Source: Eudromia elegans
Lineage: Eukaryota > Chordata > Aves > Tinamiformes > Tinamidae
NCBI GenBank assembly: GCA_003342815.1
Contig: PTEX01000312.1
Location: 589,340 to 653,339, forward strand
DNA length: 64,000 nt
Direction of reading: 5' to 3'
This document shows positions 11,286-48,749 of the stretch, piece by piece (the stretch's first letter is position 1; each line of letters opens with the position of its first letter). A model generated the notes under the pieces. The model saw only the letters and a list, made by a program, of their open reading frames with translations. It ran no database searches and was not told the DNA's origin. The position numbers and the translations under genes were made by a program.

Positions 11286-11472
11286 TGTAGGGGCCTGCAA
11301 CCACGTGAGCATCTAGTGGGGAGGTCGTGGTGAGGATGTGGGAGTCGTTTGTTAGCATCTCATGGGGAGGTGGTAGGGTTCATTTGTACGAGGATATATA
11401 AGCCACAGTACTGGTTCAGCAAAGGTCTTTGTTTCACCATCTCAGAGGTCCCTGCTCCTTAATAAACTCACA
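11286..11472 (+). mobile_element. Solo endogenous retrovirus LTR (short copy)
   Basis: The segment begins TGTAGGGG and ends AACTCACA, fitting the TG...CA rule for LTR ends. It carries a TATA-like GATATATAAG near 11393 and, downstream, a GGTCTTTGTTTCACCATC stretch shared with the minus-strand LTRs at 22.66 and 43.91 kb, followed by AATAAA at 11461-11466. The flanking hexamers ACAGTT and ACGGTC agree at four of six positions, as expected for an old 6-bp target duplication. No internal retroviral sequence lies on either side, so it is a solo LTR. The upstream part contains an imperfect direct duplication (near 11308-11333 and 11354-11378). It is an old fossil of a class II-like avian family. Confidence 0.75.
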
Positions 11473-22656: not shown

Positions 22657-23000
22657 TGTGGGTATATTGAAGAACAGGGGTCTCTGAGATGGTGAAACAA
22701 AGACCTTTATTGAAGCCACACCACGGCTTATATACTCTCGTACAGATGAACCCTGCTCCTTCCTCTTGAGAGGCTCACAAAGGATCTCCACACCCTCTTC
22801 ACGAGCTCCTACCATGGTAACCACGAGTTCCATGAGCAACTTCTAACCAATCATTGGTAGCCCTAAACACCTTTATCGAATCATGTCAAAAGGCACTGTT
22901 AACCTATCAGGTTTATCCTGTAATGGGATTTCCACCCTCGTGGTTTCTCTTTTTATCCTAATGACCCAGAGTTTGCTGCTGAGCTGTGCAGACCCCCACA
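22657..23000 (-). mobile_element. Solo endogenous retrovirus LTR, 344 bp
   Basis: On the minus strand the element starts TGTGGGGGTCTGC and ends ATATACCCACA. It holds a TATATAAG box (complement of 22728-22734), AATAAA (complement of 22706-22711) and the R/U5 stretch GGTCTTTGTTTCACCATC. The flanks ATAAGC (left) and ACAAGC (right) form a 6-bp target duplication with one mismatch, which fits a class II (alpha/beta-like) avian retrovirus integration. There are no gag, pol or env pieces beside it, so it is a solo LTR left by recombination between the two LTRs. It resembles the copy at 43.91 kb at roughly 80 percent by eye, so both are fairly old. Confidence 0.88.
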
Positions 23001-26000: not shown

Positions 26001-27839
26001 AAGGCACCACTATTTTATATAATTGTTCCCAACTCCGGGGAACATAACGTTCTGGGGCCTCAAACTCTCAAGCTAGTGGTAAAGATGCTAGATAAAGCCA
26101 CTCCAAATTAGTACACAAGTGGAACTTATGGACATGGGTTTTTACAATGCCTAGCATTTGTAGAAGGGCAAAGACTCTTTGTCTCAAGAAGTATCTGGCC
26201 TTGTTTATAACATGACATAGCAATTGAGCACTTGTTGAGTGATAAGCCTTAATAAGAACTAATTAAGTCTCAAGATCACTTTGCCAAACAGCACAAAAAA
26301 GCATTTAGAGAAAGACTGTTTCTTTCACTTTTAAGTACAAGCTAAAAAAGGAAACACACAAACACAAACAAAAAAAAAGGCTGTTAAAAAGATGGGAAAA
26401 CTAAGTAAAGAAGAAATCAAATAACACTCTATGGCCTGTGACAAAATAAATAACCACACCAGCTCTTACAAACAGATCCAAATAATGAATGGAGTAGCAT
26501 ACAGCGCAGATCATTTGGCATAACAGAGATCACCTGTACAATTTGAATAGCAAGACTGAGATCAAATTATATTGAATTAAATAAGAATACTCCGAAGGAA
26601 GAAGCAGTGAGAAAAATAAAATATATTATTAGACAGTAAGTTGTTAGCAGCCCAGGTAGGATGAAACAACAAAGATTTAAAGGCTTCTGGTTTTTGAAAG
26701 AGAGATACTTTTCCAATATGTGAAAAGCATAAGCGTTTTGGGAGGAAGATTGTGAGAGGATGGCTAGGACTGGGATCAATAGCTGGAATTAAATGCAAAA
26801 TTATTAGAATTATATATTATATATTACTATATATGATTATTTATGATGGTGAACAGGAAGCAAAGAAAGAATCTAGGAGGGGAGAGGAAGGGACATGACC
26901 TCAAAAAGCCAGCAGTTAAACAGACAACTACGTTTTTCTCCATGAGCATGACAATTTTACTAATTTGAGATTGCAATAGAAAATACACTACAATCAATAA
27001 TATAGGTTGTAAATTAATTGAGTTGAATAAATTCTGCCATATTTTACATCTTTCATATATAATCCTAGTGCGCTATCCACATTTATTTCAATGGAAAGAC
27101 TAAATTCAGTTTACTATGTGAAAAACTAATATAGCTGTATTTAAAAATCTGAATTTCCTTGCACCGTGAGAAAGTGTTTATCAAAATACTGTCTCCATTG
27201 TCCTGGAGTACCTACAGGATTATTTGAAAGTAGCATGCAAGCATGCAAAGACTCATTTTGAAAATTTACTATACCTGTCTGAGAAACCAGAGCTTCACTA
27301 TCCAGAGATTTTCTTTCCACTGTTAGTCTGTTCAAGTAGTAAGAATACAGGATCACAATAACCTTGTGATAAATGTTGCTAAGCAATAGTAATTCCGCTA
27401 TTATCCAACATAATAAAAGTAACTTAAATAAAATGGCTGACAACCTGCTGCAAAAGGGTGAACATGCTTAGCCCCAGTTAATATGCAATCTAAGAATTAT
27501 ATAAAAATACTTTAAAAAAAGAATAAAAATTAGATATGTTTTTCTTGCCACTTATAATTTATAGAGAAAAAATCCTGACTATCCACAAAACAGCATCTTA
27601 AGTCAAGTAGAAGTTTACAGTAATTGACAGGCATAATCCAAGAAAAAAACACATTCAGTGACTTAAGTTGAAAATAGGTACTAAATAAAAAAAAAAAACA
27701 GTTCAGGTTCAATACATAACTTATTATCTTACAGCTTTCTAGTGAAGTCAAAACCAAAAAATTGAATCCTGAAAATTTATACTACACTTCTGGACACTGT
27801 AATGCATATCAGAATTTTCAAGTCAAACAGTTCGCTTGA
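23001..27839. other. AT-rich non-coding DNA, no gene seen
   Basis: This is unique-looking DNA with no frame above 100 codons. It contains a 20-base T run at 24308-24327 and AT-rich simple sequence near 26805-26850. A moderately complex segment at about 25.2-25.8 kb has two opposed frames of 61 and 100 codons with no recognisable family. Confidence 0.55.
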
Positions 27840-28668
27840 AACAGTACATGACAGACTGGACAAGTGGGCACTGAGAAATCTTATGAAATTCAGCAAGGGC
27901 AAGTGCAGGGTCCTGCAGCCAGGCAGGCATAACTCCAGACACCCATACAGGCTGAAGACTGACCTTCTGCAGAGTAGCTCTGCAGAGAGGGACCTGGGTG
28001 TCATCGTGGACAACAAGTTGAGCAAGCGGAAGCAGTGTGCCCTCATGACCAAGAAGGCCAATGGGATCCTGGGATGCATTAAGCAGAGCGTCTCCAGCAG
28101 GTCGAGGGAGGTGATCGTCCTCCTCTCCTCAGCCCTGGTGAGGCCACAGCTGGAGTCCTGCGTGCAGTTCTGGGCTCTCCAGTGCAAGAGGGATGTGGAG
28201 CTGCTGGAGAGAGTCCAGCACAGGGCTACAAGGAGGATCAGGGGCCTGCAACATGTGCCCTGTGAGCAAAGGCTGAGAGAGCTGGGCCTGTTCAGCCTGA
28301 AGTAGAGAAGGCTGAGAGGGGACCTGATCAATGTGTATATATCTACCTTAAGAGAGGGAAGGAGGAGGATGAGGCCCGGTTTCTTTCAGTGCTGGCCACT
28401 GACAGCACTAGAGGAAACAGCCACAAACTCAAGCACCAAAAGTTCCACAGGAGCTTAAGGAAAAATTGCTTAAGAATGAGGGTGACAGAGCCCTGGAACA
28501 CGTTGCCAAGAGAGGTGGTGGAGTCTCCTTCTCTGGAGATCTTCAAAAGCCGCTTGCATGCCACCCTGTGCCACATGCTCTAGGTGACCCTGCATGTGCA
28601 GGAGGGTTGGACTAGACGTCCCCTAGAGGTCCCTTCCAACCTTAAGCATTGTATGATTCTAGGATTCT
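27840..28668 (+). mobile_element. CR1 LINE, 5'-truncated 3' end
   Basis: The translated sequence matches the C-terminal part of CR1 ORF2 as I know it: DKWALRNLMKFSKGKC, then AERDLGVIVDNKL, KKANGILGCIKQSVSSRSRE, LSSALVRPQLESCVQFW and [11 protein letters not shown]. After a stop codon at the LFSLK point (near 28305) and a frameshift, the rest of the ORF continues in another frame (TRGNSHKLKHQKFH, then PREVVESPSLEIFKSRL, 28389-28583). The element ends in the CR1 3' terminus, with two near-identical 7-8 base units (GATTCTAG-like) at about 28655-28668. It is truncated at the 5' end, as most CR1 copies are, and inactive. It looks younger than the other CR1 copies here because one frame stays open for over 160 codons. 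Confidence 0.95.
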
Positions 28669-28742
28669 AGCATGCTTTAGCCATCACGGTGGTGATGGCT
28701 TTCTATTTGGGCTTGAGGATCTTGAAGGTCTTTTGCCACAGT
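28669..28742 (+). mobile_element. CR1 LINE 3' UTR fragment, second copy
   Basis: Directly after the terminal repeats of the preceding CR1 lies another CR1 3' segment: a CACGGTGGTGATGG stretch, then GATCTTGAAGGTCTTTT. It aligns with the last part of the 48.3-kb CR1 (48654-48720) in the same orientation. Only about 70 bp are recognisable. It lies end to end with the previous copy and abuts the GC-rich island. Confidence 0.8.
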
Positions 28743-28864
28743 TTCCATTGCAAGGTTCCAAGCTTGTAAAGGCGGCGTGGGTCCTGCTGACAGAGGACAC
28801 GGGAGAGGCAGAGTCTCTGTATGTCTTTTTTTATTATTATTTCAATCTTTGTTGGTGAGAGCAG

Positions 28865-29460
28865 CCCTGAGGTATGGCAAGCGCCGGGGGTCAAGTTTGG
28901 AGCAGGGCAGAATTGGTGGTGGCGGGGCCAGGAGGAGCAAGATGTCCTCGCATGGGGTGCAGCACAGATGAGCCCCTACGAGTGCCGAGGGCCCTGGCCG
29001 AGGTCACTGCGGCAGGCGGCGTCACTCGTGAGCCCCTTGGTGAGGTCACAAGGCCATGGCCGGGCGCGGCGCAGCGCACAACAGGGAAGAGGAGGCGCTG
29101 GCCGCGCACGGCCCTGGTTGCGACGGTGGCGTTGGCGAAGCAGGAGCTGTGTCGCTGGCACTGGCCTCACAGCGAGTGTGTCGCTGGCGCGAGAGTCGCA
29201 CGAGCAGCGGGAGCCTGCGAGGCGCAGGGTGTAAGAGCCGCATCCTTCAACGCGCTGCTGCCCGCGTGCAGGGGGAGGCTGCAGGGGGTCACACTGGGGC
29301 AGGGATTTCCCCGGGGGCGGGAGGCTGGTGGAACCTGGACGTGTTTGGGAGGCGCTGGGAGCTCAGCGATTGCCTGTAGAGTGCCCCAAGGGGCAAGCGA
29401 GCCCGTGCCTGGACAGAGGGAGGGAGCTGGGGGCAGCTCATGAGCTGGCCCCAAACCTCT
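28865..29460 (+). promoter_or_regulatory. CpG-rich putative promoter / 5' region
   Basis: GC content and CpG density jump here compared with the AT-rich DNA around the island; CpG-rich runs are frequent between 28880 and 29345. This is the usual look of a vertebrate CpG-island promoter, and it sits just upstream of the candidate exons. No TATA box is evident. An ATG at 28874 opens a 189-codon frame, but long frames arise easily in such GC-rich DNA on both strands, so I do not call it coding. A first exon probably lies in this segment, with possible donors at GTGAGG near 29040 and GTAAGA near 29231, but its limits are unresolved. Confidence 0.5.
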
Positions 29461-29482
29461 CTCCTGCTCTCCCCNCCTACAG

Positions 29483-29582
29483 GCCTTGCAGGTGCTGCAG
29501 AGCCAAGGGCGGGAGCGTGAAGGCAGAAGGCTTCACGGAGCTCTCGCCTCTGGAGCGGGCCGCTGCGTCCCTTGCGGGACAG
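29483..29582 (+). other. Candidate internal exon A (100 nt)
   Basis: It is preceded by a pyrimidine-rich tract ending in CCTACAG and followed by a consensus donor, GACAG|GTGAGAG. In the frame that ends in phase 0 it is fully open and Cys-rich at the start (PCRCCRAKGG), then TELSPLERAAASLAGQ. That frame joins in phase with candidate exon B and on to the terminal exon. If translation starts at the ATG at 30131, this exon is 5' UTR. One ambiguous base (29475) lies within the acceptor tract. Confidence 0.5.
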
Positions 29583-29769
29583 GTGAGAGCTGGACCGGGC
29601 AGGCAGCGACACGGGCTGCTGACCTCGAGCGAGCACTGCACGCCCAGAGCTCTGCGGGCAGCTGGCAAAAAGCAGTGGTGCCCCGTGCGCCCTGGACCTG
29701 CCGAGAGCNGGGGCACTGCTCCTCAATGTGGAGGCCGCCTTCATGCCTCCTGCCTTCTCCTTTGCACAG

Positions 29770-29855
29770 GGTGTGTGGAGCGCCGCCCAGGCTGCTGTCC
29801 GTGTGGACAGTGCAGGAGAGAGGCGCTCACAGAGATCAGCTCTCCCTTGGAGCAG
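29770..29855 (+). other. Candidate internal exon B (86 nt)
   Basis: The acceptor is TTTGCACAG and the donor is AGCAG|GTAGCA. The inferred introns on either side are short, 187 nt (29583-29769) and 274 nt (29856-30129), as is common in compact GC-rich avian genes. In phase 0 it is open across its 28 codons and leaves two bases that complete a Ser codon with the first base of the terminal exon. A different frame shows a Cys-rich CCPCGQCRREALTEIS that loosely echoes exon A but does not phase with the terminal exon. Confidence 0.45.
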
Positions 29856-30130
29856 GTAGCACGTGGGGAGGAGGGAGGGAAGAGGCAGCCGCACATCCCC
29901 ATGCAGCTGTGTGGCTGGCATCAGGGCCGTGTGGGCTCTGCAGGGGGCTCCGCGCGAGCGCTGCCTCCTTGGCAGGCAGCCGTGGCTCTGGGTGCCGCTG
30001 GCGCTGGGTGCCCCTGTGTGTGTGGCTAGAGCACGCCCTGCTCTCTGGGCAGCGTTGGGCACTGCGCGGACAGGCTGCTAGGGCTGGTGGAGCTGAGCAC
30101 GTGCTCATGTCTGCTGCCCTCCCTTGCAGC

Positions 30131-30871
30131 ATGGAGTGGCTGAGGANGCGGCTGAGGAGGACGGCAGCCNCNGGGGAAGCAAAGGCCGTGGCTGAGGCTG
30201 GGCAGGCGGAGCGGCGTGCAACGGGCCTTCGAAGCTGGTGGCGCGCAGTGCGGGGCTGCTTTTGCCTGGGGCAGAGGTGCCGGCGCAGGGACAGCCTCGA
30301 CTACTGGGANACNAACGAGCTCGAGGACTACCTCCGGTGGCTGACCCGCGAGGAGTCGCACGTCTCCCAGGCCTCCCGCGTGCGCTTCTACATCGGGAGC
30401 GAGGCGAGCTCCCTGTGCAGCTGGGAGAGCGAGGCAGGGGCGGGCGTCTGCCTTGACTCTGAAGAGCCCCAGGGGAGCGAACGGCCCCGCGTGATCTTTT
30501 ACATTGGGAGTGGGACAAGCTCCCTGGCCAGCCAGGAGAGTGCTGCTGGTGTCGAGGGCGCACCCAACAGCTCAGAGCCCCAGCAGAGCGAACGGCCCCG
30601 CGCCATCTTTTATATCAGCAGCGGGTCAAGCTCCTTGGCCAGCCAGGAGAGCCATGCTGTCGTCGAGGGCAGCCTCAACAGCCCAGAGCCCCAGGAGAGC
30701 CAACGGCCCCGCGCCATCTTTTACATCGGCAGCGGGACNAGCTCCCTGGNCAGCTGNNNNAGTGCCGNNGCTGCTGAGGACTGNGCTGCNCANGANCCNC
30801 CCCAGGACACTGCAGCCCCGCGNGCCACCTTCTACATCGGCAGCGACACCAGCTCCCTGGCCAGCTGCTAG
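30131..30871 (+). CDS. Unrecognised protein with 37-residue FYIGS tandem repeats
   Basis: I do not recognise this gene. The conservative CDS starts at an ATG with A at -3 and G at +4, one base after a strong splice acceptor (CCCTCCCTTGCAG), and runs 246 codons to TAG. Residues 1-60 are basic and carry a small Cys cluster (CFCLGQRC, 43-50) followed by RRR. Residues 61-80 look helical and acidic (NELEDYLRWL). From residue 83 to the end the protein is a tandem repeat with an exact period of 37 residues: the core Phe falls at 86, 123, 160, 197 and 234. The consensus core is FYIGSGTSSLASQES, with an acidic/Pro/Ser spacer ending EPQxSxRP. Unit 5 is cut short and ends LASC. No signal peptide or membrane segment is seen. 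In this frame, most differences among the repeat cores are silent (TTT/TTC, TAC/TAT, ATC/ATT, GGG/GGC, AGC/AGT, CTG/TTG), which supports real translation. Translation could instead begin further upstream, because exons A and B are open in a compatible phase. Repeats 4-5 are partly masked by ambiguous bases. Function is unknown. Confidence 0.68.
   Translation: MEWLRXRLRRTAAXGEAKAVAEAGQAERRATGLRSWWRAVRGCFCLGQRCRRRDSLDYWXXNELEDYLRWLTREESHVSQASRVRFYIGSEASSLCSWESEAGAGVCLDSEEPQGSERPRVIFYIGSGTSSLASQESAAGVEGAPNSSEPQQSERPRAIFYISSGSSSLASQESHAVVEGSLNSPEPQESQRPRAIFYIGSGXSSLXSXXSAXAAEDXAXXXXPQDTAAPXATFYIGSDTSSLASC
30377..30868 (+). repeat. 111-bp in-frame tandem repeat array
   Basis: There are four full units (30377-30487, 30488-30598, 30599-30709, 30710-30820) and one partial unit (30821-30868), all 111 bp apart with no indels. 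The first 40-50 bases of each unit, coding FYIGSxxSSLAS, are the best conserved. The spacer halves diverge, most of all in units 1 and 4. The array lies wholly inside the CDS. Confidence 0.9.
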
Positions 30872-31155
30872 AGGCCCGCGCATGCCACACGNTGCAGCNC
30901 CNGCGGCANCGCTGCTCATCNAGNGACATCCCTGCCCAGCGTGGACACCAGCCGCAGCAGCAGCATCCCCTGCCACTCCACAGCTGCTCCACACAGGGAC
31001 ATTGTACATAGGTTACTTGTAAATATGTTGGTGTTAGGATAGAGTTAGGGTAGCTCATAGCTTGCTAAGAAGTTTGTAGGAGAACATAGGAGAGTGTTAT
31101 CTGATAGCTTGTGTTCTAAAACTGGTTGAAAAATAAAATGAACGGAGACAAAATG
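30872..31155 (+). other. Putative 3' UTR of the repeat-protein gene
   Basis: Sequence between the TAG stop and just past the poly(A) signal. GC content falls sharply after about 31010, as often happens at the end of GC-rich genes. It contains six isolated ambiguous bases between 30892 and 30924. Confidence 0.5.
31132..31137 (+). terminator. Poly(A) signal AATAAA
   Basis: A canonical AATAAA about 260 bases after the stop codon of the FYIGS-repeat CDS, on the same strand. It is the first canonical hexamer after the stop that I see. Confidence 0.6.
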
Positions 31156-32330
31156 AAATGCTTTTCCGTTGAATTCCTTCCTGTATCCTACCGACTCCCG
31201 CTCAAGGATGACAAGTGACCAACCGCTAAAAAGTAGCAGACGCTCAAGAGGCAAGAAGCGCTATCAAGCAGCAGAGGCTGAAGAGCACTTGCAGCTTTCA
31301 TCCCTTGCGGGCTGCCTGGACACTTGCCAAGCGCTGAGCTGCTCCTTTCCCCTTTCCTTGGGGGCTGCCTCCCCTCCTGCTGAGAGCTACAAACACCTGA
31401 GGAAAGGCTCCCTGCCCCTCGAGAGTCACTGCGCATATGCAAGCCTGCAGGAAAGATGCCACCAGGCCTGGTGCCTTCTCTCCACCTCCACAAGACCCAG
31501 CAGCTCTTGCGCTCTTCCCGCACACAAGCTTGCCCGTCAGTCCCCGTGTCTTTATACTTTGCCCTCCTGCTTCTTTCCTCACGATGCTCATGATAGCGTC
31601 TCCCTCAAGGCACCTTCACCCCTGCACTCCTACAGGCCGCAGAGTGACCGCAAGCAATCCCACGTCCCCTTCCTGCCATCCACATGGTGCTCTCCCCCTG
31701 CTCCCTCCTCCCTCTACCAACGGTTCGTTCCAACATCATTGCGTGTCTAGGGCATTGCCGTGGGACACCTCCCTGGAGAGAGGGACTTGGAGGAGGAGGC
31801 TGGTAGCTGCCCCATTAAAGAACAAATGCCAGGCGTCCTGCATGATCCTGCGTGCCCTGCCTGTGCCTGCATTCCTGGGGACACTGTGTGCAAGTGCTGG
31901 CAAAGCTGACGTTGAGCACGTGGGGCCAGGCCTTGCGTGGCCTCCCAGAGACACAGAGAGACTCTCTCTGCGCAGGAGGGAAAGCAAAAGCATGCCTTTG
32001 ACGAGCTTTCCTTTCCTCCTTCAGCTGATGGCGGAAAAGCTCCTGCCATCTTCACTGCTCTCCCCAGCAAATCCGCAGGCCACGCAGAGCTCACCTGGGA
32101 GCTGCGGCTCTCTCTTGCTTTTCTACTTGGCCAGCTCAGGGAGTGACGTTGTTTTCATTACTGCCAAGCAGCAGCCTCTAACTTTGCTGACCTCTTGCAG
32201 CACTTCTCTGCCATTAGGACTGGAGTCCAATTAGCATTTGTATTTTGCTGAGTGCACTATGGATGACTTGAAAACACGGAGAGGCAAGGCCACCCAATAA
32301 CCACTTCGAGATCTCTTGCATTTCCACGGG
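31156..32330. other. GC-rich flank of the island, ORFs of doubtful coding status
   Basis: This stretch is moderately GC-rich and pyrimidine-rich on the plus strand. Two plus-strand frames overlap: 193 codons (31169-31750, opened by a TTG; the first ATG is about 13 codons in) and 265 codons from an ATG at 31437 to 32234. The longer frame is Pro/Ser/Leu-rich with no domain I recognise and no repeat. A good acceptor-like CTTTCCTCCTTCAG ends near 32025. The frames could be chance openings in stop-poor DNA or an unrecognised downstream gene or exon. GC returns to background by about 32330. Confidence 0.35.
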
Positions 32331-35122
32331 GTAGGCTATCTTGAAAGTGCTGCTTTCATGTCTAGTCTACTATTTCATGGTGGCAGTATCACTAAGATGT
32401 TGTCTACATAGTGTGTTATAGTGCAATATTCTCTTTAAAAGTACAAGAAAGTGACAAAGGTAAGGAAACATTTTAGGAGGACTAAAAGAATAAACTGGGA
32501 ACATTGCAGTGTGGGCAAAGAAGCAGAAGTGAGGAAGGAAATAAGGATTAATGAGGCGACATCCACTTCAAGGTGATTTTAGTTGACAGAAAGTGTTATT
32601 CATCTGTCAGGGCATCCCTGATGTAAGTTAAGCTTCAGGGCTCGGAAGTGCATACTTTTTGTGATCCTCTTTCCTTCTGCTATGATAATAGTGGAGGTTT
32701 AAATGTGTGCAGAATAACTTCTCTTTCTTTTATGGACCATAAAAATGATCTATTTGCAACTGGACACAGCACTATAGCATCTGAGACTGCAGTTCCTTCT
32801 CAGCCTTGGTGGAATAGTATTGCAAAAATTTGCTGTAGAGCAGTCATGGAGCTCTTTTGCACCTATGGGGTACTGGCTTCCATCCAGAAACTTTAGTTTT
32901 AGCACTGTGGCATGACTGCTGCAAAGGGGAGCACCAGTCAGCGAGGGGAAGGCCCAGTATCAGTGGCCTTTGGTGTACAAACCACCTACTTGAGCGGTAC
33001 TTGTTAAGTAGGTGGGAAATGCTGGAGGCAAGTCACCTGGGACTGCTTTCTTCATGGATAGTCTGGAGCTAGCCAGTAGCAGAGCATGGCGCGGAAGCTG
33101 CTGCTCAAGCTTCTGCTCCTGTCAGCAGCTCTGGGACCACATGTGGTGGTAAATTTACTTGGACCACTTCTGAGCAGAGAGCTTGACCTCTGTGGAGTCC
33201 TATGCAAAAATGAGCTCCAGGTCTTCCTTTCTGTCAAAAAAAAGAGTTGTACTCTTGATAGTCTTCTCTTAACTTTGAAGTGTACCATGGACATTCTGTT
33301 GTTCATGGTGAAATAATGCTCTTTCATGTCATGTCTTTATGATAACCCCAAAAGTCTTTTTGTTGTTATATTATAGAAGGTGGGACCTGAATCTCATTTA
33401 TTATAGTATTTGTCCCACACTTCCATTGTAACTACTAAGATTATCTTGGAAAATGTCTAACCCCGGAAACTAAAATATCACTGAAAATTATTCTTTTTTT
33501 TTCTTTTTTTTTCCCCTTGTCTTTCATTCCTTGACAATCTTATTTCTGGATACACCACAGATTATTTTCTGTATTTATGCAGTGCTCAGTGACAACTTGC
33601 TGTGCACTATTATCCGTCAGTGAAATTAAAATAATGTTAAAAATTAAAGTAACACATAATAATTGCATTTAAAATTGTTGCTTTTTGCTTACATGACTCT
33701 AGATGTATTTTAGTGAAATAAACATGAGAAGTGATTAGTTTTGAGTGATTATTCTTCAGTGTGTATATTAATGAATTTGAAATATTTTGAATTAATACAA
33801 TATTGCGTGTGTCAATGAACATGTGATTTTAAGATATTAGATTGGTAAGACAGTGAGAGGACTACCAACAGTTATAAACTAGTATTAAAAAGCAATCTTC
33901 TATCGAAAAAACACTTAATGATATTGAACTAGTCCTTTCAATAACATCTGACAACTTGGCAAATGCCACATTTAACGTCATTTCATCTCTATTGTCAGAT
34001 ATTTCACAACACTGATTAGATAATTAAACCCCTAGGAGGTTCCTTTCCCTTCTTTTTTTTTTTTTTTTTTGACTACTGTTGTAGTTCACCTATAGTATTA
34101 ACATACAAGACTTATAATTATTTATAAGACTTATAATATAACTATTTATAATTATTTATAATAGATATTATTTATAGATATTATTTATAGATATTATTTA
34201 TATTATTACAACTTTTTAAGGCTAAAATTTGATTAATTTTCACCTCCAGACATCTTATACCTTTTTAGAATTATTTACTGAAGTCTGTATAAATTTCTTC
34301 AGCTAGTACATTATTGGTTAACTTAGGTTCAAAACCACTTGAGTACCAATTACTTTCAACATTTAGAAACAAGCCCTATGCCTCCAGACAAGTTCTAGGT
34401 TTCATGACCTTTAAATAGTTTTCTTAGCATAACAGTAATATTAGCACTATTCTAGAAACCAAATTAAAAGCTAAGTTTTCCTTTGCAATTTAATTGAAAA
34501 TATTTCCTTGTCCCTATCTTTGGAGGGCATAGGATTCCCACGGTGTGCCTTTGCCTCACTTATGAGTGTTGAACCATTCCTAGGTCTGGTATATATTCAG
34601 TTTTCCTTTCAGTCATCTTCCTTTTTCTTTCATTTATTAACCTCTTTGAAAAAGCTGCTTTCATTTTCCTATAAACCTGAACTGTGATTTATTTACACAT
34701 CTGTCCATGTTCCTAAATTTTGGGATTATGATTTCTTTAACACAGAGCAAACTATTCTGACTTAAGCCAGAATATTTATTTTTCACATTTTTTAGCTACA
34801 CATATGCACACCCTCGTGGACTGCTGGACTTTATTTATATACTTGTAAGTCATCATCAAAACTGCCACCACTTCCTTTGTTTCTCTCTAACACAAATTTG
34901 TGGTCCTCAGGTTTCTTTTCAGAGCTAGATACATTCATGGAATGTTAATTTCAATTCCAAAGTGTTATTTGAATGCAGTTTTTTACTTTATCAGGCTTTT
35001 TAATGCTATGATATTTATTAACGTACTATGCTTTTTTTTTACGATAAAGCAAACTTTTAAAGTAATTAATAAATTCATTAATTTTATTGAATTAATTTAA
35101 GACATTTGCTTTTCACTGATAC
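32331..35122. other. AT-rich non-coding DNA, no gene seen
   Basis: No frame above about 91 codons and no recognised family. It contains an 18-base T run at 34053-34070 and a perfect 13-bp minisatellite at 34161-34199 inside a wider ATTTATA-rich tract (34095-34210). Confidence 0.6.
34161..34199. repeat. 13-bp AT minisatellite, three perfect copies
   Basis: ATAGATATTATTT is repeated three times without change, within a longer stretch of related ATTTATAA units. Confidence 0.95.
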
Positions 35123-35330: not shown

Positions 35331-37501
35331 AAATAGAATAGGCTAAATGTTGGGGAATTCAGCTGTCCAGGAAGTTGAAATCTCATGAACTGGAACATAC
35401 ATGTTTAAATCCAATTTACAAAAGAATACATTTTTCTATGTTAATTTGTTGTTTCTAAGTTATAAAATAGGTTTACTTGAATTCCTTCAAGTTTATTACA
35501 CTTACTGTCTTGTTACGGGCAAAAACAATACACATATATGCAAAGTCAAGAATTTATTGTTAATGTAATTTAAGTCTTAACCATCTAAAGAAAGAATTGG
35601 TTCTAAACAAATCTTGGTTATAGTGATACTTACACTTCTACTTCATATTATAGAGTTAAAATGAATTTTCTTACACAATTTTTCTAGTAGCTACCTGTTT
35701 CTCTGGCATTAAGCTTATCTGGTCTTAAGCTTAAAGGTGGTGGCAGAATAGTTTTTATGGTCATCAGCATCCTGAGTCTTTCTCCATGAGAAATATGATT
35801 TTGATGTTCGTAGTTTCTTCCTTCTCATGATAGCATGCTTTGGACCATTTTTACATATTTGCATGTGTTTTATGCCTTGCCCTTTCTTCATCAGTCTGTA
35901 AATGCACCTCATACCTAAGTTTGCTACCTGAGATTTGTTTTGCATATGCTCTGTACTTATTCTTTGTTCTCTTTGATGTCCCCAAAACTGATATTATGAA
36001 ATTCACAAGGATCCTTTTCACTAATGACCAATGATTGATACTTGTGAGTCGTTCATAACTCTGCAGCCCCTGGTAGCACCCTGCACCTCTGCATTCAAGA
36101 TTCCTGTTCTCTTCCAGGGAAGCCTGTACTGCCTCTGTGTTGCATTTTATTCTGGAGTTGTGGTTAGCTTATTCTTTATAGAATAGATTATTCTTCATAG
36201 AAGAGCTGCTTTAAACTGCTGTCTATTAGTTGCACAAATACATATAACACTAAGACCATACAATGCACAAGCTAAGTAAAAAGTGAAATAAGATAGGTGG
36301 TAATGACCTGGCCATTAGGCTTTATCAACCTAATATGAATCTCCAAACTGCTCTGTCAAGCTAATATAAATCTCCAAATAGGCCCAATGAAACCCAGATA
36401 CAGTCTGACAGGTCCTGTGCCTGTGCTGTCTGCTTGAAACAAAGCCTTTATCCTTCTACAAGCCATAGACACAGATTTACCGGACTACAAGTTTACATAT
36501 GTCTAGTAACACGGAATGGCATCCTCCTTCATGACCAGCTTTGTTGATCTTGTTCAGCCTGATTATAGAAAATACAGTTCTACTTAACAGGGAAAAATAA
36601 AATTAGAAAAAGACTCTCAGGTTATGCCATCAAAATAAATAAGCTACAGTATTTTCAGTAACATCATTATGGTAATCTTCCTTCACAGCACTCTCAGCAA
36701 AAAACTGTTTTGATTCAGTGGAAATAAACTGACTACAAGAAAATAGTCTTTTAAGATGTGTTGGCAATTAGTTATTTAGTATTTGTGGAAATTTGACCTT
36801 TTTTTTTTTTTTGGTTAGTATTCTCATGTCTCTATTGTCTTAGGTTATTACACAACTTTATTATTTTTCTTCTTCTTAGAAGCTGTATGAGTTACACCAA
36901 ATATCATTGTATTTTTGCACTAGGTGAGTTTCTGGAGATCTTATAAAAATTAAGAGGCAATTGCGAGAGGCAATACTTCAAACACAAGAAATATCAGAAA
37001 GAAAACAGAAAAAAAGCACATAGAATATGAATGGATAGAATTATTAAAATCTACCTTTCAATTAAAAATATGATTGGAGTTGTTTAGCCGCATGCTCCAT
37101 GCTCACATCTCTGATTCTCTAAGGCAAAATGGTTAGCAAAATGGCTTTATTATTTTATATTATTTTAAAAATAACTTAGGTAAAATACGACAAAACCAGA
37201 TGAAGTTAAGCAAATAAACAGTGTTTAACCTAGCAAGGGCCTAAACAAGGCAAGTAAGAGAGACATAAAAATGCGCATTATAGAGCAAGTAGAGATAACA
37301 GATCCAGAATAAGATCTGATAAACTGTCTAATATTCCTTATGATCAAAGAAAATCTTTATGGAAAAACTCTCCCATGATGAAATCAGTTTTGTCAAAAAA
37401 GTAAATGGCATTTCCTTTTGAAAATGTGCTGTCTTCTTAACTGTATCTACAAAATAACCACTTTCCTAACTTCCACAAATCTGTGGTGCTGATTATAGAC
37501 A
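35331..37501. other. AT-rich non-coding DNA with one possible LTR remnant
   Basis: No gene seen. Around 36.29-36.56 kb an imperfect 24-bp direct duplication (AATCTCCAAA-containing units near 36327 and 36358) precedes a GGATAAAGGCTTTGTTTC sequence on the minus strand, which resembles the R region of avian LTRs. Ends and target duplications were not found, so it stays a suspicion. Confidence 0.4.
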
Positions 37502-37955
37502 GAATCACAGAATGGTTGAGGTTGGAAGGGACCTCTAGAAATCATCTAGTACAACCCCCCTGCTCAAGCAGGGACACCTAGAGCATGTGGCACAGCGTGG
37601 CACCCAGGTTGGTTTTGAAGATCTCCAGAGAAGGAGACTCCACTCTCTCTGGGCAGCCTGTTCCAGGGCTCTGTCACCCTCACATCAGTCAAGAAGTTCT
37701 CCCTGACATGCAGATGGAACTTTTTGTGTTTCAATTTGTGCCCATTACCCTTTGTCCTGTCATTGTCCACCACCAAGAAGAATTTGGCCCCATCCTCCCT
37801 ACACTTTCCGCTCAGGTACTTAGGCATATTAATCAGATCCCCTCTCAGTCTTCTGCAGGCTGAACAGGCCCAGGTTGCTTAGTCTTTCCTCATAAAAGAG
37901 AGGTTCAAGACTCTTAATCATCTTTGCGCTCTATGCTGGAACCTGTCTAGAAGTT
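37502..37955 (-). mobile_element. CR1 LINE 3' fragment
   Basis: The plus strand begins ATCACAGAATGGTTGAGGTTGG, the reverse of the CR1 3' end. The minus-strand frame (37564-37827) reads CREDGAKFFLVV, then RTKGNGHKLKHKKFHLHVRE and VRVTEPWNRLPRE, matching the C-terminus of CR1 ORF2. Upstream of that frame the LRELGLFSL-type region is recognisable near 37850-37900. It is 5'-truncated and inactive. Confidence 0.95.
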
Positions 37956-39104
37956 TCAGGATTATCAGGAATAGGCAACAAAAACTGACATAATCAAAAT
38001 ATCCTCTGGAAATGTGAAACAGGATAGTATATCGTCCCACTGATGACAGGCTGAAACAGAAATGTGCAGGTGCATTGTATCTCTCTAAAATGTTGAAGTC
38101 AATGTTAAAGTCTAGACTGGTTGACAGCAGTCATATCATATCATATCATTCGCTCCAGTGTAAAAGGAAAAGATACTCACAGGAAAAATAGGTGAACCTC
38201 ACCTGGTGATTTACATCCATCATAACTGCATGTCTGTGAAAAAGATGATGATTCTTTGTCTTTACTGATAAAAAGTATATTATTTTGAAGCTTCAGTCCA
38301 TTACTGCAAGAGGATATTATAGTACTTATCATTCAGAAGTAGATATGTGTTTGTGATAGCTTTGAGAATTATGATTCCAGTGAAAAGAGGCACACTCAAT
38401 TATAGAATCTCTGTTTTTCTGGAAAGTATAATATGGACAAGAATTAATTTTAATAATTAAACTAAGTGGACTGCATACACATGAAGCAGAAATGCATTTT
38501 GTTCACTATTAGTTTCTTATGCTTGACTCATCTTAGTATATTTCAGATATACAGATATACAAGATCACTTACTTGTATTCTTTAAACAGATCTATGCTCC
38601 AGGAATTTCTTATACAATTAAAGTTTCACTTGTATGTTAATAAATACAACCTTACAAAGCTGTATCAATGTCCTATGTGGAGACCTCCTTTCAAAAGACC
38701 TTCTTTTACAATGGTGAACTCTTAACAGGAAACATAAAACTGTGTGCAAATATTACAGTGTAGCCATAAATTTCCCTGTAAGTGATCCTTTTTGCTAAAC
38801 AGTGCTCATCTTATGCCTGCATTATTAAAACAATCTACTTCTTTCTATGCTATGCAACAGAGTGGGCTTCCACTACTTAGACTTTATAGTTCACAAACTT
38901 TTTTCTCATGATTTTTTTAAGTTAAGATTATTGTCCTTTTCTTTTTGCAAGTTTTCAGAAGCAGAACATAATTATGTATTATGAAGTGCTACAGTTGCCA
39001 GAGGAAAACAAAGAAAGATAAATAATTCAGACCGTCACAGGTAGTTTGCTCTTCTATGTCAATTCAGAAATGTCAGATACTCTTGTTCTAAAAATTGAGC
39101 CCAC
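37956..39104. other. AT-rich non-coding DNA, no gene seen
   Basis: No gene or further transposon was recognised. A short (TCATA)4 repeat lies at 38131-38150. Confidence 0.6.
38131..38150. repeat. (TCATA)4 microsatellite
   Basis: Four tandem 5-bp units, the last with one change. Confidence 0.9.
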
Positions 39105-43909: not shown

Positions 43910-44203
43910 TGTGGGTATATTGAGGAGCAAGGGTCTCTAAGATGGTGAAACAAAGACCTTTATGGAAGCCACACTGCAGCTTATATACCCTCATACAAAC
44001 CCTTTCCCCTCCCATGAGAAACATACAGAGGACCCCCACACCCTCTCCATGAGATGCTCACATGGTAACCACAGAGCTCCATGAGCTAACCAATCCTCAT
44101 GAGCCCCAAACACCTTTATCCAATCATTTCAAAAGGTCCTAATGACCGGAATTTTACATCTCAATGACTCCTGAGTTTGCCCCAGGCTTTGCAGACTCCT
44201 ATA
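43910..44203 (-). mobile_element. Solo endogenous retrovirus LTR with intact 6-bp target duplication
   Basis: It is the same family and orientation as the LTR at 22.66 kb: the plus-strand left edge is TGTGGGTATATTGAGGAGC, and inside are the GGTGAAACAAAGACCTTTAT and GCTTATATACC stretches (the reverse of R/U5 and the TATA box). It is flanked by identical hexamers, ATCTTG at 43904-43909 and at 44204-44209, which fixes both ends and shows an independent integration. Six-base duplications fit class II avian retroviruses. No proviral interior remains. Confidence 0.92.
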
Positions 44204-48323: not shown

Positions 48324-48749
48324 TGTCCAAAGAAGAGCAATAAAGCAGGTGAACGGGGTTGGAGCACAAACTTTATGAGGAGGAGCTGAGGGAGCTGGGA
48401 TTATTTAGTCTGGAGAAGAGGTGTCTCAGGGGAGATTTTGCTGCTCTTTACAACTCCCTGAAAGCAGGTTATTGTAAGGCTGGGGTCTATCTCCTCCAAA
48501 ATAACTACCCTGAGGACAAGAGGGAATGGCCTCAAGTTGCACCAGGGTAGCTTCAGCTTAGATCTTAGAAAAAAATTCTACACGCAAAGAGCACTGAAGC
48601 ATTGGCAGAAGCTGCCTGGGAAAGTGGTGGAGTCACTGATACACTGGGAACATGGCTTAGCAGGCATGGTGGTGATGGTTTTATGGTTGGACTTAACGAT
48701 CTTGAAGGTCTTTTCCAACCATAATGCTTATATGATTCTATGATTCTAT
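48324..48749 (+). mobile_element. CR1 LINE 3' end, different subfamily
   Basis: It starts GTCCAAAGAAGAGCAA and translates to [22 protein letters not shown] and then a LYNSLKAG region typical of CR1. Further 3' come the GTGGTGGAGTCAC and GATCTTGAAGGTCTTTTCC stretches, and it ends in TATGATTCTATGATTCTATT, the classic avian CR1 3' terminal repeat. The ORF2 remnant stops at 48550. It is 5'-truncated and inactive. Confidence 0.95.

Follow-up and report, generated by a model that had tools for sequence, protein, structure and literature searches.

Vertebrate genomes harbor lineage-restricted 'ampliconic' gene families, of which the multi-copy testis genes on sex chromosomes are an example. Two further kinds of described system are relevant at the level of the protein: tandem arrays of short linear motifs, such as the MELT repeats of KNL1, and the regulatory proteins that dock protein phosphatase 1 (PP1) through an RVxF motif, such as GADD34 (PPP1R15A). 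The pattern for PP1 docking can be written [RK]x(0,1)[VI]{P}[FW], and an alanine in place of the valine does not fit it.

The gene described here lies on the forward strand of a 64-kb stretch of the Eudromia elegans genome (hereafter 'the window', meaning all 64,000 nucleotides analysed), and it resembles each of these systems in part. Like the ampliconic families, it exists as several similar copies, some clustered, many at assembly breaks and some partly decayed, with a stretch that has seemingly been homogenised between subfamilies; unlike them, it matches no named family, and it is known here from sequence alone. Like the MELT repeats, it places a short conserved core between divergent linkers and varies in repeat number, but its core sequence is not known to be related to theirs and the spacing in the window copy is a constant 37 residues. 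Like the PP1 regulators, it has a first core that reads R-V-x-F (at 10 of the 10 loci where it could be read); unlike them, it has alanine for valine in most of its later cores, and the RVxF definition does not include the constant Y-I-G-S that follows the motif here. It would be filed as a new family of a known kind, namely an amplified, changing vertebrate gene family that carries a tandem linear-motif array. The best overall explanation, to which we assign a probability of roughly 0.6, is a genuine multi-copy coding gene, predicted to be spliced, whose product would be a disordered, multivalent docking protein.

The coding sequence (30131..30871, plus strand), identified by translation, by relatives in the same genome and by selection, comprises 246 residues and a stop codon within one exon. 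Its N-terminal, non-repeat part of 77 residues (30131..30361, plus strand; MEWLRxRLRR, WW, GCFC and YLRWLTREES) is followed by five tandem 37-residue units with acidic Ser/Pro spacers (30362..30868, plus strand), in which the unit core reads [RH][VA]xFY I G/S S xxSSLxSxE. As the preliminary description had stated, the FYI cores fall at residues 86, 123, 160, 197 and 234, a period of exactly 37, and a stop directly after the last core ends the fifth unit early. Its 'exact' 37-residue repeat holds for the spacing but not for the unit sequence, the units differing pairwise at 0.10-0.57 per codon position, and the consensus FYIGSxxSSLAS that it gave to every unit holds only in part: FYIGS is present in four of the five (the third reads FYISS) and SSLAS in three (unit 1 reads SSLCS, and unit 4 has an N at that place). 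A 111-bp array at 30463-30754 was found independently by Tandem Repeats Finder, and two or more FYI occurred in none of 20,000 residue shuffles of the product. When the units of the window copy are compared with one another, 15, 15 and 28% of codon positions 1, 2 and 3 differ in the core, and 35, 48 and 42% in the spacer.

The GC content is 54-69% per kb over 28 to 32 kb, versus 29-45% per kb in the remaining window. In DNA of such GC content, the length of an open frame carries little weight on its own (the minus strand, too, is open, for 262 codons at 29289-30077), and relatives and selection were therefore examined. Birds are described as having genes whose GC content is so high that they are missing from short-read assemblies (PMC7757076). 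Every one of the window's 27 Ns falls within 29475-30924, in the gene. The 19 that lie inside the frame translate to 15 X, or to 10 when fourfold codons are resolved, and since some of the affected codons begin with TG, the Ns limit how far the window copy can be called open. Thirteen of these 19 occupy codon position 3 (p 0.002), a bias that sequence variants between copies or between alleles would produce; the in-frame Ns of other copies are not enriched there (9/19, p 0.15).

A six-frame search of the source genome (944 Mb, 723 contigs) with the 246-residue product returned 18 matches at 11 loci on nine contigs, the window included, with best E values per locus of 1.4e-146 to 2.4e-19. These coding loci lie on C238 (the window, C238:589340-653339), C249, C194 (two), C338, C138, C512, C390, C102 (two) and C284. 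The genome is bird-like but not that of chicken, as judged by CR1-like sequence next to the gene and by a lysozyme gene with 74-79% identity to hen lysozyme over three pieces. With the product of a copy from the second subfamily (L013, E <= 1), 19 matches were obtained, which took in the same 11 loci; outside them were a stub of 25 residues on C390 (E 0.0056) and two weak matches, one on C446 (E 0.0046, with two stops) and one at C138:857440 (E 0.99), both taken as chance. When 29001-30160 served as a DNA query, upstream sequence turned up at five more places in this genome (C238:1315, C238:217340, C249:1, C338:1588 and C390:124134), the last of which keeps MEWLR and meets a stop after 25 codons. 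The total is at least 16 places (11 coding and five with upstream sequence), and all such counts are lower bounds. What had been proposed as one small gene belongs instead to a multi-copy family with 11 coding loci.

The copies form two subfamilies that differ in repeat number. In group I (the window, L009, L010 and L014), the long alignments show 86-91% likeness in DNA, with about 89% identity to the window; group II (L012, L013, L015 and L018) is 73-75% identical to the window, and L016 is intermediate in a tree of eight copies. A frame open from MEWL to the stop is found at six of the 11 loci, with five units in the window copy, four in L009, L010, L012 and L013, and three in L015; L010, like the window copy, contains Ns. 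L014 is interrupted by a run of Ns, past which four units are open in frame, and L018 is cut by a contig end. Three of the 11 are decayed or truncated: a stop codon breaks the frame of L016 between its second and third units, L011 decays after unit 2, and L017 is without the N-terminal part. In L012 and L013 a remnant of the last unit, FYAACESSSLASC, lies in another frame and the protein ends with a different tail, which is also present in L015; the second subfamily has thus lost its last core through a frame change. From this loss and the three decayed or truncated copies, it follows that the family tolerates loss. A detached fragment with three repeat cores (L012 4951-5253, minus strand) lies about 1.5 kb from the full copy on C512, and two units lie about 3 kb apart on C390.

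Five of the 11 coding loci, and eight of the 16 places, are no more than 5 kb from a contig end, a zone that makes up 0.8% of the genome (binomial 1.2e-8 and 1.4e-13, with a threshold set post hoc and copies that are perhaps not independent). Because five of 11 loci are so placed, the copies have probably been undercounted; the contig-end placement, together with the confinement of the window's Ns to the gene, suggests unresolved copies.

When the window was compared by blastn with the 10 other loci, a duplicated gene unit common to the more distant copies was delimited at 28685..32147 (plus strand). The 5' edges of the alignments fall at 28685-28688 (L015, L018 and L016), 28972 (L012) and 29133 (L013), and the 3' edges at 32143-32147 (L012, L013 and L016) or, in two close copies (L010 and L014), at 32347. 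The alignments of those two close copies continue 5' into what we take to be the end of a CR1-like retroelement (27766-28668), just 5' of the unit; that of L009 begins only at 28646. Judged by sequence identity, 29021..29260 (plus strand) is a probable promoter or first non-coding exon region: it is 83-86% identical between the window and L012, L015 and L018, versus 71% over 28690-28960 (L015 and L018, the two copies used upstream of 28961, where L012 and L013 do not align). It contains GGTGA[GT]GTCACAAGG, found in seven of 10 aligned copies, and a GTGTAAGAG donor-like site at 29229, found in eight of 10. An upstream start at ATG 29056 was considered and rejected, as it occurs in the window and L010 only, two of the seven copies aligned there.

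Two 5' exons are predicted on the plus strand and read as probably non-coding. Exon A (29492..29582) has the acceptor TTGCAG/GTG in 9/9 copies that hold the region and the donor GGGACAG/GTGAGA in 8/9, the ninth having an N; it carries a 23-bp deletion in subfamily II and is without an ATG in 8/9 copies. Exon B (29770..29855), with acceptor TTTGCACAG/GG and donor CAG/GTAGCA both present in 9/9 copies holding the region, carries a 5-bp insertion in subfamily II and no ATG. The coding exon, C, would begin with the single base 30130 (plus strand) after the acceptor TTGCAG; TTGCAG/CATGGAGTGG occurs in 10/10 copies holding the region and is absent from L017. The arrangement TTGCAG/CATGG, with both the acceptor and ATG 30131 and with MEWLR directly after, is likewise kept in 10/10, and an extra acceptor, CTACAG, lies 9 nt upstream of TTGCAG in group I only. 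The signals proposed earlier all proved present: a good start context (A at -3, G at +4 of ATG 30131), an upstream acceptor (TTGCAG/C), and a poly(A) signal, AATAAA, at 31132..31137 (plus strand), 263 nt from the stop codon. AATAAA lies 3' of the stop in nine of 10 copies scanned. In L011 and all six open copies the distance is 207-265 nt; it is 469 nt from the early stop of L016 and 599 nt from the gap-caused stop of L014, and in L017 no such signal was found.

A codon model fitted to the first 126 columns of eight copies, the decayed L011 included, gave an omega of 0.357 (lnL -1472.9), and fixing omega at 1 and kappa at 2 gave an lnL of -1493.8, which is 21 worse. For the window and L012, pS is 0.52 and pN 0.26 in frame (Fisher 2.3e-5); when this DNA is read in the two shifted frames, the ratios are 1.60 and 1.03. 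The in-frame deficit of amino-acid changes is significant in eight of nine pairs (p 2e-5 to 0.017), the remaining pair being the window and L010 (p 0.14), and in shifted frames it is significant in none of the nine. With three pairs pooled, the in-frame ratio is 0.54 (p 0.0017), and the shifted frames give 1.35 and 0.82, neither significant. Pairs with L011 gave an omega of 0.60-1.73, as expected because this copy is decaying. By these comparisons, the frame is coding and is moderately constrained by purifying selection.

The copies, then, share a start, a splice acceptor, a poly(A) signal and, as read from their DNA, a frame under purifying selection. The preliminary impression of a real gene is supported by 10 further loci with related coding sequence (five of them open from MEWL to stop), by purifying selection that acts in this frame and leaves no significant deficit in either of the others, and by splice sites and a poly(A) signal that are kept across copies. 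We regard it as very probable that this is a real coding family, and that the window gene is one copy of a dispersed, partly clustered, multi-copy family.

Flanking CR1 sequence is common to the window, L010, L014 and a further locus, L019, and on C390 (L013) part of the unit, CR1, the unit and CR1 follow in order within 7.2 kb. Because the apparent introns are kept, flanking CR1 is common to several copies, and the elements are so ordered on C390, the evidence points to segmental and tandem duplication and not to retrocopying.

Divergence between the two groups, measured in 100-bp bins, is 0.14-0.25 differences per site from 28961 to 30160 (introns included), 0.22-0.38 in the coding exon and 0.27-0.53 downstream; the corresponding identities are 83% in intron 2, 70% in the coding sequence, 67% in the 3' UTR and 64% downstream. 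There is a step between the subfamilies near the start codon, divergence over 28961-30160 being far lower than over 30161-32147. Synonymous divergence between groups is 0.57-0.84 (L011 left out), several times the value for intron 2. Among the group I copies, divergence is ordered in the ordinary way, with 0.02-0.06 in the coding sequence, 0.01-0.11 upstream of it and 0.02-0.12 downstream. The simplest reading would be that gene conversion between the subfamilies once acted on the 5' half and that its tract ended close to the start codon; as an alternative, a strongly constrained regulatory region may account for the low 5' divergence.

The encoded protein has a net charge of +5 over its first 80 residues, and of -10 (window copy) or -15 (L013) beyond them. 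All 22 invariant columns of a nine-copy alignment lie in the first 76 residues, in part because the remainder is limited by truncated members. Over 36 units at 10 loci the core reads [RH][VA]xFYIGSxx[ST]S[LMV]xSxE, a tally in which F, Y, I, G, S, S, S and L owe part of their conservation to the search pattern and which missed units with an X in that pattern, such as the second unit of L010. The residues that were not imposed are R (32) or H (4) at -3, V (17) or A (19) at -2, S at +11 in 33 of 36 units and E at +13 in 25 of 30. The general PP1-docking pattern matches the first core in all eight scanned copies that have this core in frame, and also in L014 and L017, and the window, L009, L010 and L012 each have two RVxF-type sites. 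The motif is not kept in the repeated cores, alanine standing at the valine position in 19 of the 26 later cores (19/36 over all cores), and at least one general RVxF pattern occurs in 12-13% of shuffled proteins of the same composition. AlphaFold2, run on the nine-copy alignment, gave no confident structure (mean pLDDT 30.4, a low value that, coming from nine related sequences, does not prove disorder), and the only strands in this very-low-confidence model are at or beside the cores.

Transcription would start from a promoter near 29.0 kb, and the transcript would be spliced through the non-coding 5' exons into the single coding exon. The product would be an intrinsically disordered protein, whose basic, Trp- and Cys-rich N-terminus (MEWLRRRLRR...WW...GCFC) may tether it to a membrane or a partner, and whose C-terminal cores, 37 residues apart via acidic linkers, would display a single short linear motif several times over. 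Such an array would most likely serve for multivalent docking, binding a partner under the control of serine phosphorylation. Taken as a specific functional model, a disordered, tethered, multivalent scaffold with repeated docking or phosphoserine motifs is a tentative proposal, more likely wrong than right. PP1 is the best named candidate for the partner, because the first core is always R-V-x-F, and it is nonetheless a decidedly improbable one. Amplification, changes in repeat number and the decay of copies suggest a fast-evolving, perhaps germline, family. In a more speculative form, which we consider unlikely, the family would be a bird-specific, amplified germline family that acts as a 'tunable' multivalent adaptor, each 37-residue unit docking a single partner (PP1 or another), with repeat number and copy number evolving, and with the regulatory half homogenised between subfamilies while the coding half diverges.

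The principal competitor at the level of protein function is that the cores associate with one another, I/T-F-Y-I-G-S pairing between molecules as a beta strand or aromatic 'sticker', so that the array drives assembly or condensates instead of engaging another protein. Aromatic and aliphatic cores set between polar acidic linkers of constant length, the greater conservation of the core than of the spacer, and the placement of the model's few strands are all consistent with it, but simple stickers would not need the kept R/H at -3, S at +11 and E at +13, and the model has a mean pLDDT of only 30; we hold self-association to be less likely than not. The product might also extend upstream, with exons A and B coding and ATG 30131 an internal methionine. 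Joined, these exons are open for 62 codons before the ATG in 4/4 group I copies and for 56 codons in L012, L013 and L015, and the two length changes of subfamily II (-23 and +5 bp, a net -18) keep the overall frame; yet subfamily II reads the middle of the peptide in another frame, stops occur in L016 and in L018 as parsed (with an L018 exon B that is 5 nt too long), eight of nine copies have no upstream ATG (ATG 29056 being confined to the two copies named above), the pN/pS of A and B together (0.70 and 0.58) is not clearly below 1, and ATG 30131 is kept in every copy that holds the region. An upstream extension consequently appears rather unlikely.

Two further accounts deny the family the status of an ordinary gene, and both seem very improbable. 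According to one, recent duplication gave rise to pseudogenes, or the sequence is a GC-rich repeat with no more than the look of a coding region, and the open frames reflect high GC and youth; the long open frame on the minus strand and the three decayed or truncated copies would fit, but the omega of 0.357 and the likelihood lost at omega 1, a selection signal that is restricted to one frame and seen between subfamilies whose downstream DNA is 64% alike, and the six copies with open frames argue against it. According to the other, the frame is the coding part of a mobile element that moves the gene about, as the spread over nine contigs, the CR1-like sequence next to several copies and the similar ends near 28685 and 32147 might indicate. 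Against such mobility stand the apparent introns kept within the unit, which imply that it was not retrocopied, the common flanking CR1, as in segmental duplication, and a product without a Pfam match or a relative in viral contigs (the frame 29444-30871 likewise has no Pfam match). The multi-copy coding gene remains the preferred reading.

The preliminary description knew of no named family with this repeat, and that statement stands for Pfam, NCBIfam, the PDB, a largely microbial protein collection and open papers. Pfam gave no family for nine members; the best NCBIfam E value was 0.016 (HgcB, for which the first member scored 11.1 bits and the cut-off is 99); the PDB gave no match for the product, and a match at E 1.5 for the nine-copy alignment was taken as chance; and no Rfam family reached its gathering score. 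In a protein collection drawn from public genomes and metagenomes, seemingly mostly microbial and thus saying little about other birds, nothing was found at E <= 10 with the product (7992 candidates scored), with the nine-copy alignment (7988) or with residues 26-135 of an N-free copy (91 candidates), the first two sets comprising only those candidates that shared most words with the query. Bacterial, archaeal and viral contigs held no relative of the window copy. Among open papers, the string FYIGS was in none about birds by title, and five longer peptides were not found, which is weak evidence, peptide strings being seldom printed. Other birds may well carry annotated but unnamed copies. As to chromosomal placement, three Spindlin matches lie on contigs without family copies and neither place the family on a sex chromosome nor exclude it, and those listed of at least 150 GPCR matches lie off the family contigs, which means little because only about two would be expected there (an estimate).

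The gene and its relatives make up an unnamed multi-copy protein family, under selection, in a GC-rich and gap-prone stretch of a bird-like genome. Its copies with three, four and five repeats, in two subfamilies of one genome, form a natural series for the role of a tandem linear-motif array, and germline expression, if it occurs, would make the family a candidate for the fast-evolving reproductive or conflict genes of birds.

Several repeats were also observed in the window. A stretch related to the CR1-like sequence lies at 37501-37958 on the opposite strand (74% identical over 471 bp), and an interspersed repeat occurs at 11316-11472, 22657-22904 and 43910-44147, 75-78% identical and in both orientations. 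A 69-bp stretch at the 5' edge of the gene unit (28671-28739) is found again 20 kb away, at 48651-48719, with 78% identity.
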